Shown here piece by piece: positions 14,305-18,216 of a stretch of 64,000 nucleotides of DNA. The position numbers and the translations under genes were made by a program. The DNA comes from Kutzneria kofuensis (lineage in GTDB: Bacteria; Actinomycetota; Actinomycetes; Mycobacteriales; Pseudonocardiaceae): NCBI RefSeq assembly GCF_014203355.1, contig NZ_JACHIR010000001.1:5086038-5150037 (forward strand), read 5' to 3'. Below the pieces are notes generated by a model. It was not told the origin of the DNA. It searched no databases and saw only the letters and a program-made list of their open reading frames with translations. Every line of letters starts with the position of its first letter. The stretch's first letter is position 1.

Positions 14305-15135
14305 TCAGCCGCCCGCTGGCGGGGGTGAGAGTTGGCTGTCGGGGGGTACCGGGACGTCGACCGGTTGGCCCCAGGCGGTGTAGGTGCGGCTGACGGTCAG
14401 CGTGCCTTTCGTGGCGGGCACGTCGAGCTTGGACTCGGACCGCAGCGGCACGTTGCCGTTGCCGACCCACAGCTCGTCGACCATGGCGCCGAGCTTGGCC
14501 TCCAGCAGCGTCGTGTCCTTCAACGGCCCGTCGGGCAGGGACTTGGCCACGGCCGTCAGGTCCGTCTTCAAGGCGTAGTGCCGCGCCGGCGTCAGCCCGA
14601 CCGGCTGCAGGTCGGAGCCGACGATGGTGGTGGTCGCGGGATCCAGCGGCATCGCCAGCGGAGACAGCGTCGCCTGCTTCAACGACGCGAACAGCGGCGC
14701 GAACTCCTGGGAGAACGCGTCCGTGCCGTTCTCGGTGGCCCGCACCCACGGCTTGTCGGCCGGCAGCTTCTGGTCGGCGGGCGGCCGCACGTAGACGGCG
14801 CTCGGCGTCAGCACGAACGACAGCGTGGTGGTGTCCGGGGACTTCACGGTCATCGTCGCCGTCATCCACAGACCCTGGTCGTCGCGGCGGAACGCGCCGG
14901 TCACCGAGGTGACGGTGTGCGCGTCGAGCAGTTCGGTCGTGGAGTCGACCGTGAACTTCGCGGAACCGCTGCCGGTCAGCTTCGCGGTCACGGCTTTGGA
15001 CAGGTCTGCCAGCGTGGCTTGCGCGGGTGGGACAACCGTTGGATCGGACGAGCCGGTACCGGCGACGCTCGACGTGCACGCTGCGAGTCCGAGCACCGCG
15101 ACCGCGGCGACGGCAGCCCTGGCGACCACGCTCAC
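14305..15135 (-). CDS. Secreted lipoprotein, possibly LppX/LprAFG-like
   Basis: A 276-residue lipoprotein. The N-terminus SVVARAAVAAVAVLGLAAC ends in the lipobox cysteine, followed by a short Ser/Thr-rich linker. The mature part (sequences such as TGSGSAKFTVDS and LWMTATMTVKSPD) looks like the antiparallel beta-sheet fold of the LolA/LppX type that carries lipids, but this is inferred from composition and layout only. GTG 15135 overlaps the stop of the upstream methyltransferase gene by 4 bp, so it is the last gene of the aroA operon. Confidence 0.75.
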   Translation of the reverse strand: MSVVARAAVAAVAVLGLAACTSSVAGTGSSDPTVVPPAQATLADLSKAVTAKLTGSGSAKFTVDSTTELLDAHTVTSVTGAFRRDDQGLWMTATMTVKSPDTTTLSFVLTPSAVYVRPPADQKLPADKPWVRATENGTDAFSQEFAPLFASLKQATLSPLAMPLDPATTTIVGSDLQPVGLTPARHYALKTDLTAVAKSLPDGPLKDTTLLEAKLGAMVDELWVGNGNVPLRSESKLDVPATKGTLTVSRTYTAWGQPVDVPVPPDSQLSPPPAGG

Positions 15136-15938
15136 TTCTGAACCACGTAGACCAGTTCGTTGCCGAACTCGAGTTCCTCGACCTGCCACGGCCGGCCCTC
15201 GGCGTGCGCCGTGAAGCCGTTGGAGTACGTCCGGTACATGCCCTTGGACCGCTGCCCGAGCGACTTCGTCGGGAAGCTGACTACGACCACCGGCGAGTTG
15301 ATGGCGTCGATCAGGCTCCAGCCCAGCTGCTTCTGCTGCGTCTCGATGCACGGCACGGCCTTGAGCAGCAGCGTCACGTCGGCGGGCTGGGGATCGGGGC
15401 CGGTCAGCAGGTCGTGCACGGCGACCTCGTGCGACACGCCCAGCACGGACAGCGCCTCGTCCAGGAACGCCATCAGCCGGCTGTCGATGTCCGACGCGCG
15501 GTACAGCACGTCCTCGCCGACCGGCATCCACTCCACGGTCAGCGGGTTCATGCCGCACGCGAGGTCGGCGATCACCCGCGGCGGAGCCGGCAGCCGCTCG
15601 AAGATGGCCCCGTAGAACTCCTCCAGGATGGGCAGGCGCTCCTTGGTGGACGCGTGCGAGGACATCGTCCGCGACAGGGCGTCCCGGACCTGGTCGCGGT
15701 CCTGGGCGTCGCGCAGCAGGCCGAGCATCTTGTCGTACCGGGGCGTGCTCGGCAGGTACGCGCCGAAGATCTCGTGCAGCCCGCGTTTGGTGCGCTTCAC
15801 GGCGTCGTTGACGTCGCCGCGCGCCGCGGCCAGCGAGGCCGTGGCGATGCGGCGCACGGTGTCGTCGGCGACGCTTTGGTAGCGGGAACTGTCCCGCACG
15901 GCCACCAGCACCTTCGCCAGCTTCTCGTCTTCCACCAC
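15132..15938 (-). CDS. Rmt-family 16S rRNA (guanine-1405-N7)-methyltransferase
   Basis: A 268-residue protein that closely resembles the aminoglycoside-resistance methyltransferases of producer actinomycetes (Sgm, GrmA, FmrO) and the related ArmA/Rmt enzymes. These methylate G1405 of 16S rRNA in the 30S subunit and block 4,6-linked aminoglycosides. Visible family motifs: ARGDVNDAVKRTKRGLHEIFGA (the N-terminal rRNA-binding region; residues about 40-60), the SAM loop DLACGMNPL (125-133), ASDIDSRLMAFLDEAL, LLLKAVPCIETQQ, SFPTKSLGQRSKGM (221-234) and the C-terminus FGNELVYVVQK. GTG 15938 overlaps the rsgA stop by one base (TAGTG). No aminoglycoside biosynthesis gene is seen in the window. Confidence 0.93.
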   Translation of the reverse strand: MVEDEKLAKVLVAVRDSSRYQSVADDTVRRIATASLAAARGDVNDAVKRTKRGLHEIFGAYLPSTPRYDKMLGLLRDAQDRDQVRDALSRTMSSHASTKERLPILEEFYGAIFERLPAPPRVIADLACGMNPLTVEWMPVGEDVLYRASDIDSRLMAFLDEALSVLGVSHEVAVHDLLTGPDPQPADVTLLLKAVPCIETQQKQLGWSLIDAINSPVVVVSFPTKSLGQRSKGMYRTYSNGFTAHAEGRPWQVEELEFGNELVYVVQK

Positions 15939-16945
15939 TACTCCTCGGCCAGCCCCGCCCGCGAGGCCAGCAGCCTACGCAGCGAGCGCAGCCTGCCCTC
16001 GGTCGCCAGCCCCTCGGCGACCACCGTGTCCAGCATGCAGTCCGGATCCTCGGGTGGCCCGAGGTGCCCGCAGCCGGACGGGCACTCCTCGGCGGCCTCG
16101 GCCATGCCGGGGAACGCCGCCACGATGTCGTCCGGCGTGATGTGCGCCAGGCCGAACGACCGGATGCCGGGGGTGTCCACCACCCAGCCGCCGGCCGGCA
16201 GCGGGAACGCCACCGCCGAGGTCGAGGTGTGCCGGCCCTTGCCGATGCCGCTGACCTCGCCGGTGGCCCGCTCCGCCGCCGGCACGAGCTTGTTCACCAG
16301 CGTGGACTTGCCGACGCCGGAGTGGCCGATCAGCGCGGACACCCGACCGTCAAGACGTTCGGCGAGGGTGTTGGGTTCGCGGTCCGATCGGGTGACGACC
16401 ACCGGCAGGTCCAGCTCGGCGTACACGGCCAGGATCTCGTCCGGCGGCGCGAGGTCGGACTTGGTCAGGCACAGCACCGGCGTCAGGCCGCCCGCGTACG
16501 CGGCGACCAGGCAGCGGTCGATGAAGCCGGTGCGCGGCGGCGGGTCGGCCAGCGCGGACACGATGATCAGCTGCTCGGCGTTGGCGACCACCACCCGCTC
16601 GTACGGGTCGGTGTCGTCGGCGGTGCGCCGCAGCACGCTGCTGCGGGCCTGGCGGCGCACGATCCGCGCGAGAGTGTCCGGCGCCCCGGACACGTCGCCG
16701 ACCAGGTCCACCTCGTCGCCGATGACGACCGAGGTGCGGCCCATCTCCCGGGCCCGCATGGCGATCACCTTGCGCTCCGGGTCGCCGTCCAGCGCGCACG
16801 TCCAGCGGCCGCGGTCGACGCCGACCACCATCGCCGTCTCGGCGTCGGCGTGGTCCGGCCGCTTCTTGCTGCGGGGGCGGGAGCCCTTGCCCGGCCGGAC
16901 CTTGACGTCGGACTCGTCGAGCCGACGCCAGTCGCCGCGGCTCAC
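15938..16945 (-). CDS. rsgA: Ribosome small subunit-dependent GTPase A
   Basis: A 335-residue circularly permuted GTPase that assists late 30S maturation. The permuted order is seen: N-terminal OB-fold, then G4 (CLTKSDL), G1/P-loop (GHSGVGKST) and G3 (DTPG), and a C-terminal zinc site (C, then CPSGCGH and C). GTG 16945 overlaps the aroA stop by 4 bp; the frame is open further upstream within aroA but that is a shadow. The aroA-rsgA pair is conserved in actinobacteria (Rv3227-Rv3228). Confidence 0.95.
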
Positions 16946-18216
16946 ACCCGCTCCGCCAGCTGGAGCATGGCCGCCCACATGCCGGGGAAGTCCGGGATGG
17001 TCTTGGTGGTGGTGTTGATGTCGTCGACCGAGACGCCGGGCACCTTCAGGCCGATGATCGCGCCGGCGGTGGCCATCCGGTGGTCGGCGTAGGCGTGCCA
17101 GAGGCCGCCGGTCGGCTGCGACGGCCGGATGATCAGGCCGTCGTCGGTCTCGTCGGCGTCGCCGCCGATGCCGCGGATCTCCGTGGTCAGCGCGGCGAGG
17201 CGGTCCGTCTCGTGGCCGCGGATGTGCGCGACGCCGCTGATGTGCGTGGGGCTGTCGGCCAGCACGGCCATGGCCGCGACGGTCGGCGTCAGCTCCGAGA
17301 AGTCGTGCAGGTCGATCTCGATGCCGTTGAGGCGCTCCGGGCCCTTGACGGTCAGGCCGTTGTCCGACAGCGACACGTCGCAACCCATCTGCGCCAGGAT
17401 GTCGCGCATGGCGTCGCCGGGCTGCGTGGTGGCCAGCGGCCAGTCCGGGATGGTGATCGCGCCGCCCGTGACGGCCCCGGCGGCGAGGAAGGCGGCCGCG
17501 TTGGACAGGTCAGGCTCGATCCGCCAGTCCCTGGCCGCGATGGCTCCCGGCGCGACCCGCCACCGGTTCGGCTCGCTGTCGTCCACCTCGACGCCGACCG
17601 CCCGCAGCATCTCGATGGTCATCTCGATGTGCGGCAGCGACGGCACCGGCTTGCCGTCGTGCAGCACGGTGACGCCCTGCTCGTAGCGGGCGCCGGACAG
17701 CAGCAGCGCCGAGACGAACTGCGAGGAGCCGGACGCGTCGATGGTGACGCTGCCGCCGCGCACCGAGCCCGTGCCGTGCAGCGTGAACGGCAGCGAGTCG
17801 CCGTCGATCGACGCCCCGAGCGAGCGCAGCGCGTCCAGCACGGTGTTCATCGGGCGGACGCGGGCCTGCTCGTCACCGTCGAAGCGGACGTCGCCGTCGG
17901 CCAGCGCCGCGGCCGGCGGCATGAAGCGCATGACGGTGCCGGCGAGGCCGCAGTCCAGGTCGGCGTCGCCGCGCAGCGGACCCGGCGTGACCTCCCACGA
18001 CCCCTGGTTCCCGTCGGCGATGCGCACGCCCAGCGAGCGCAGCGCCGCGGCCATCAGCTGGGTGTCCCGGCTGCGCAGCGGCAGGTGCACGGTGGAGGGG
18101 CCGTCGGCGAGGGCGGCGAGCAACAGGGCACGATTGGTGATCGACTTGGAACCGGGCACGGGCACGGTCGCGCGCACGGGCTCGGTGACGGACGGGGTGG
18201 GCCACGGCTGCGTCAT
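16942..18216 (-). CDS. aroA: 3-phosphoshikimate 1-carboxyvinyltransferase (EPSP synthase)
   Basis: A 424-residue enzyme of the shikimate pathway that joins shikimate-3-phosphate and PEP. The N-terminal substrate motif is [19 protein letters not shown]; the catalytic region includes [16 protein letters not shown] and the C-terminal [14 protein letters not shown]. It is the first gene of a four-gene minus-strand unit in which every junction overlaps by 1 to 4 bp (rsgA, Rmt methyltransferase, lipoprotein). It is divergent from the SRAP gene across an 84-bp gap, as in mycobacteria. Confidence 0.97.

Follow-up and report, generated by a model that had tools for sequence, protein, structure and literature searches.

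The sisomicin-gentamicin resistance methylase Sgm (PDB 3lcu, 3lcv) is the product of a gene by which an antibiotic producer protects itself, according to the accessible part of the source (PMC12406665). Methylation of 16S rRNA at N7 of G1405 blocks the 4,6-disubstituted deoxystreptamine aminoglycosides, as described in the available sections of another report (PMC12933310). The homologous methyltransferase described here, from Kutzneria kofuensis, resembles Sgm in family, clade and motifs and finds in it its best PDB match (3lcu), which extends over the full length with an E value (1e-89) far beyond chance. Unlike Sgm, however, it is encoded in a string with aroA and rsgA, in a genus whose sampled genomes hold no gene resembling 2-deoxy-scyllo-inosose synthase (DOI synthase), which catalyses the first step of 2-deoxystreptamine biosynthesis. 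The closest relatives outside Kutzneria, at 63-64% identity, are the Kgm-type methyltransferases of Streptoalloteichus tenebrarius and Streptoalloteichus hindustanus, which we take to be KgmB; in contrast to the Kutzneria gene, theirs is followed by an RsmI-like gene and not preceded by rsgA, and the hosts possess DOI-synthase-like genes. The plasmid enzymes ArmA, RmtB, RmtF and other Rmt types share the Pfam family and the core residues with the Kutzneria enzyme (26.6-32.1% identity by tblastn) but, unlike it, are mobile and occur in clinical Gram-negatives. Finally, FmrO homologues of the same family from Chloroflexota (about 35-45% identity) adjoin 16S rRNA modification genes, usually with a Tgt paralog and sometimes with a second FmrO copy, whereas the genome studied here has neither.

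The window, that is, the whole stretch of 64,000 nucleotides analysed, belongs to a genome of 10.4 Mb. Four minus-strand genes form a string in which successive genes overlap by 4, 1 and 4 bases. The first is aroA (16942..18216; TIGR01356 at 399.5 bits, cut-off 287; Pfam EPSP synthase at 1.2e-111), followed by rsgA for the small ribosomal subunit biogenesis GTPase (15938..16945; PF03193 at 1.5e-46; TIGR00157 at 145 bits, cut-off 100), the gene for the FmrO/Sgm-type 16S rRNA (m7G1405) methyltransferase (15132..15938; GTG start, 268 aa), and a lipoprotein-like gene that also starts with GTG and has no Pfam family (14305..15135). Base 15938 belongs both to the rsgA stop codon TAG and to the methyltransferase start codon GTG, and the resulting TAGTG (15936..15940, minus strand) may serve as a site of translational coupling. 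The preliminary description had given the 268-aa frame and rsgA with these limits, had noted the one-base overlap and had placed the gene in a housekeeping operon; the frames, the gene order and the shared base agree with it in all of these respects. Among seven Kutzneria genomes, the window and K. buriramensis share the one-base overlap, and in the remaining five the methyltransferase homology begins 1, 12, 18, 21 and 25 bases past the rsgA stop. The lipoprotein-like gene lies behind the methyltransferase gene in six of the seven; it was sought and not found at that place in a Kutzneria MAG (L025, after 6454). Two copies of it follow the methyltransferase gene in K. viridogrisea (L029 6527-8118).

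Pfam assigns the protein to PF07091 (FmrO) with 254.1 bits (E = 1.8e-75; cut-off 27) across positions 2-255 of 255, and its AlphaFold model is of high confidence, with a pLDDT of 88.8 and a pTM of 0.86. A residue comparison was based on 11 enzymes from outside Kutzneria, comprising eight of actinomycetes, including Sgm, and the three plasmid enzymes RmtB2, RmtF1 and ArmA. The 23 positions invariant in these rows were chosen without the Kutzneria sequences, and the test is therefore a fair one; the window enzyme and each of the other six Kutzneria rows retain all 23, which bears out the earlier claim of a full set of Sgm/FmrO/ArmA-like motifs. At the positions invariant in Sgm and the three plasmid enzymes, the window enzyme agrees in 29 of 32. 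In a quick 100-row family tree, rooted at the midpoint and with ArmA on a long branch, the seven Kutzneria proteins cluster together (SH-aLRT 100) within a 15-row actinomycete clade that contains Sgm (SH-aLRT 100), and the two Streptoalloteichus proteins are their nearest kin (SH-aLRT 93). A phylogeny with known enzymes had been proposed as a check on the Rmt-clade reading, which this supported placement with Sgm leaves standing. Three 16S genes were found in the window genome, and since the one copy read contains the usual GCCCGTCAC, G1405 and A1408 are present in it. Judged by its sequence, the window protein is an Sgm/Kgm-clade enzyme of known type in an unusual, genus-wide setting.

The general Rmt model of NCBI gives the window enzyme 236.8 bits, below the curated equivalog cut-off of 250, which is a threshold for naming and not a property of the enzyme. 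Three other Kutzneria proteins score 238.3, 228.4 and 231.2 bits, so that all four tested fall below 250, as do the proteins of Microtetraspora (240.9) and Chloroflexus (233.4); Sgm reaches 300.1, and the scores of the two Streptoalloteichus proteins are 254 and 250. Therefore, the window enzyme is filed as an FmrO/Sgm-family protein with putative G1405 activity. These scores could be read as signs of a protein that modifies another base or is inactive, and the family does diverge elsewhere, as in the second copies of Chloroflexota, where P196 is kept in 1 of 14, G233 in 1 of 14 and M234 in none of 14. For the Kutzneria enzymes we regard such a change as very improbable, because P196, G233 and M234 are among the invariant residues that they keep and because the gene is under purifying selection.

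This selection is seen across the genus sample of seven genomes, which includes K. buriramensis, Kutzneria sp. CA-103260, Kutzneria sp. 744, K. viridogrisea and the MAG. Each genome has one copy of the methyltransferase gene, 93 to 68% identical to that of the window in the other six, and the order SRAP gene, aroA, rsgA, methyltransferase gene is the same in all seven. Comparisons of the window with the six other genomes gave dN/dS values of 0.17-0.39 for the methyltransferase gene, 0.19-0.38 for aroA and 0.09-0.23 for rsgA; the Kutzneria methyltransferase is under purifying selection. The five closest Kutzneria are separated from K. viridogrisea and the MAG both in the tree of aroA with rsgA (support 100) and in that of the methyltransferase (99), in which the shallow Kutzneria branches are not resolved (1-56). 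A recent mobile insertion was considered and rejected on account of the identical place in seven of seven genomes and the agreement of the deep genus split with aroA and rsgA. None of the 1462 plasmid records matched by tblastn is at least 60% identical to the window methyltransferase; the gene thus shows neither the variable location nor the close mobile copies of a mobile resistance gene.

Outside Kutzneria, the FmrO family is rare in actinomycetes. It was found in 23 of 297 genomes of the window's family (the seven Kutzneria included; 19 above the Pfam cut-off) and in 3 of 396 genomes of its phylum (the window's own included; 2 above the cut-off). At none of the other actinomycete loci examined does the methyltransferase gene lie beside rsgA. 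The literature covered, mostly open-access and available as partial texts, contained no announcement of a G1405 enzyme beside rsgA or of an FmrO-Tgt-RsmI link, which is weak evidence of absence, and no data on the antibiotic susceptibility of Kutzneria.

Candidates for DOI synthase were taken as PF01761 matches and typed by blastp against Streptoalloteichus references; three proteins (two from Kutzneria, one from the control) were also typed against the PDB, because no NCBIfam DOI-synthase model separated the classes. The seven Kutzneria genomes contain ten PF01761 genes in total, seven of which are 75-84% identical to a Streptoalloteichus AroB; two others are an AroB-like pair and one matches a sugar-phosphate cyclase. 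The pair consists of a second AroB-like gene in each of two genomes (L043 and L138; 71% identical to each other), and the cyclase gene belongs to genome G126 (L141). None of the ten is DOI-synthase-like, a result that covers DOI-synthase-dependent pathways; fortimicin-type aminoglycoside routes do not use this enzyme. In the control, the two Streptoalloteichus genomes, seven PF01761 genes were resolved into two AroB and five DOI-synthase-like genes. A hidden DOI synthase was rejected by this typing of all ten genes. The earlier description had seen no aminoglycoside cluster; in the window's genome and the six other Kutzneria, the DOI-synthase-dependent 2-deoxystreptamine pathway that would mark a self-protecting producer was not found either.

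From the same data one may picture an aminoglycoside-making ancestor common to Kutzneria and Streptoalloteichus, whose pathway was lost in Kutzneria while the protection gene survived behind rsgA. The rank of Streptoalloteichus as nearest kin and the five DOI-synthase-like genes in its genomes are consistent with such a history, which nevertheless seems improbable: the dN/dS range of the methyltransferase gene means that selection continues, the PF01761 search yielded no remnant of a pathway, and both Streptoalloteichus methyltransferase genes (on contigs C9 and C8) lie off the contigs that carry the DOI-synthase-like genes.

Because methylation at N7 of G1405 blocks drugs of the 4,6-type, the plain reading is intrinsic protection from the drugs of others. 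We consider it probable, from comparative sequence evidence, that the gene encodes an active, genus-fixed G1405-N7 methyltransferase that confers intrinsic resistance to 4,6-aminoglycosides and has been kept since before the sampled Kutzneria split. An Sgm/Kgm-type gene would have arrived behind rsgA before these lineages diverged and would have been retained since. Presumably co-transcribed with aroA and rsgA, it would be expressed at housekeeping levels, and its product would bind to 30S subunits and modify the predicted target base, G1405, at N7. Ribosomes so modified would be constitutively protected against the 4,6-disubstituted deoxystreptamine aminoglycosides of soil neighbours, the presumed selective reason for keeping the gene. 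The preliminary description had offered two readings, a chromosomal reservoir of resistance and an intrinsic modification; given the Sgm/Kgm clade, the housekeeping operon, the long retention and the PF01761 result, both are reasonable.

A different emphasis would make m7G1405 a native, constitutive mark of the decoding site that is added, in concert with RsgA, as 30S assembly nears its end and is retained because it serves the ribosome, not because of drugs. The coupling to rsgA in all seven Kutzneria genomes agrees with this, as do the DOI synthase result and the relatives, which adjoin RsmI, RsmF or the Tgt paralog in 65 of 80 loci. Operon membership by itself, however, is no proof of function, and the closest kin, Streptoalloteichus, has DOI-synthase-like genes. 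In addition, enzymes of this kind carry a fitness cost in laboratory E. coli, smallest for Sgm, according to the accessible part of PMC12406665. A native mark of this kind appears unlikely, although a role in 30S maturation is possible from the one co-location and the family pattern. Intrinsic drug protection remains our preferred explanation for Kutzneria, and it is the family at large that offers the more surprising lead.

A scan of named genomes yielded 224 relatives, the nearest 80 of which were kept: 12 from actinomycetes, 65 from Chloroflexota and 3 labelled as other phyla. In a Chloroflexota sample, 57 of 301 genomes, the centre genome included, carry the FmrO family. The statement that producer clusters and plasmids are the normal home of these genes was thus too narrow: most of the nearest 80 of the 224 relatives are chromosomal or contig-borne Chloroflexota genes, and with this prevalence the family extends beyond producers and plasmids. 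By tblastn, a Tgt-like gene was detected in 59 of the 80 loci, namely in Microtetraspora and in 58 of the 68 non-actinomycete loci (L062-L129; for example, L062 6884-8002 and L105 6778-8001). An RsmI-like gene was detected in 28 (24 non-actinomycete, 4 actinomycete), an RsmF-like gene in 16 (all non-actinomycete) and RsgA in 5, all Kutzneria. Another 15 is the number of loci with two FmrO genes; in this count an overlapping match hid the FmrO gene of L107. None of Tgt, RsmI, RsmF and RsgA was found by tblastn in 10 of the 80 loci, some of them on short contigs. The fullest order, rsmI, Tgt-like gene, fmrO, fmrO2, rsmF, is complete in L086, L123 and L129. This FmrO-Tgt-RsmI/RsmF module, which belongs to relatives and not to the window, stands out as the most unusual finding of the analysis.

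RsmI and RsmF are named for methylation at C1402 and C1407. ArmA prevents RsmI from acting at C1402, and RsmF meets interference at C1407 from Sgm and RmtC, according to the available text of PMC12406665; given such interference, partner copies of RsmI and RsmF would make sense. In both Streptoalloteichus genomes an RsmI-like gene directly follows the methyltransferase gene (L055 8888-9583; L056 8886-9608; TIGR00096 at 183 bits, above the cut-off), and a weaker RsmI match lies elsewhere. In Actinokineospora bangkokensis, the only RsmI match, a divergent one, adjoins the methyltransferase gene. The second FmrO copies of the Chloroflexota loci (L077, L081, L084, L086, L091, L097, L109, L115, L117, L120, L123, L127 and L129) form one tree group (100) in which G59, P196, G233 and M234 are lost in all or all but one, and on account of these losses they may have another target. 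The window genome, by comparison, has a single FmrO gene, no PF01702 or Tgt-family match, and a sole RsmI match away from the methyltransferase gene. Of Tgt, RsmI, RsmF and RsgA, the Kutzneria loci carry RsgA only (seven of seven), which sets them apart from the Chloroflexota module. An extra RsmI copy in Kutzneria was rejected as well, since six genomes have one match each and the two matches of G057 are adjacent pieces in two frames.

The Tgt genes beside fmrO are paralogs. In four Chloroflexota genomes tested, a strong Tgt elsewhere scores 463-525 bits and the fmrO-side paralog 301-321 bits; in Microtetraspora sp. NBRC 13810 the paralog (279 bits) is the only Tgt match, and no Tgt match was obtained in four other Pseudonocardiaceae tested besides the window genome. 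Fifty-seven of the 59 paralogs entered the alignment, from which a copy with stops and a fragment were omitted. At the position of Ala232 in Zymomonas Tgt, all 57 have proline and the four strong Tgts of the same genomes have serine; Leu231 gives way to Trp in 55 paralogs and to Tyr in the other 2. Two paralogs retain Glu235, which one of the four strong Tgts lacks too. All 57 retain Asp156 and Asp280, and the 56 that extend to the position of Asp102 have this residue as well. The Leu231/Ala232 peptide flips with Glu235 between guanine and preQ1 binding, according to the accessible portion of PMC3660597; with these base-selecting residues altered, the paralog probably differs in the way it handles its base.

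In Microtetraspora (L059 5025-13803), two FmrO genes, RsmI, a QueD-family (PTPS) gene, QueC and QueF surround the Tgt paralog, and the position of QueE is taken by a radical-SAM protein under the Pfam cut-off. The cluster adjoins genes for a B12 radical SAM protein, a GMC oxidoreductase and a zinc dehydrogenase, which could be biosynthetic, and an IS4 transposase. In another instance, genomes G250 and G235 (congeners of A. bangkokensis and A. pegani) have a divergent Tgt-family gene with an FmrO homologue, likewise divergent (57-64 bits), immediately after it. In G250 (L038), QueC is divergently adjacent to the pair; in G235, whose Tgt is seen by tblastn only, a radical-SAM gene lies nearby. 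Pairs are present by tblastn also in G243 and G166, so the pairing recurs in separate lineages (L038 4054-6767; L193 4711-8062; L039; L194). In L193, a 230-aa ORF lies beside the Tgt gene. No QueC match was obtained in the genome of Chloroflexus islandicus, which would thus need another source of the base.

A wider proposal sees in the FmrO family a system that originally serves native modification of the decoding site and not antibiotic resistance. The Tgt paralog of Chloroflexota and Microtetraspora would insert a preQ1-like 7-deazaguanine into 16S rRNA near G1405 by base exchange, alongside suited RsmI and RsmF copies; producers and plasmids would have drawn from this stock, and Kutzneria would have kept only the methyltransferase, tied to RsgA, with m7G1405 constitutive. 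Taken as a whole, this proposal is speculative and rather unlikely.

In Kutzneria, the operon setting and the failure to detect a key gene for making such antibiotics together suggest a built-in ribosome modification. A G1405 methyltransferase that is linked to a gene of 30S assembly throughout the sampled genus, where no 2-deoxystreptamine synthase was detected, raises the question of what m7G1405 does for a ribosome in the absence of a self-made drug. Because the Kutzneria enzyme scores under the standard annotation cut-off, resistome surveys may miss such genes. Moreover, relatives that lie among genes for C1402 and C1407 methylation, together with a Tgt paralog that bears the proline in 57 of 57 cases, make the origin of the G1405 enzymes testable.
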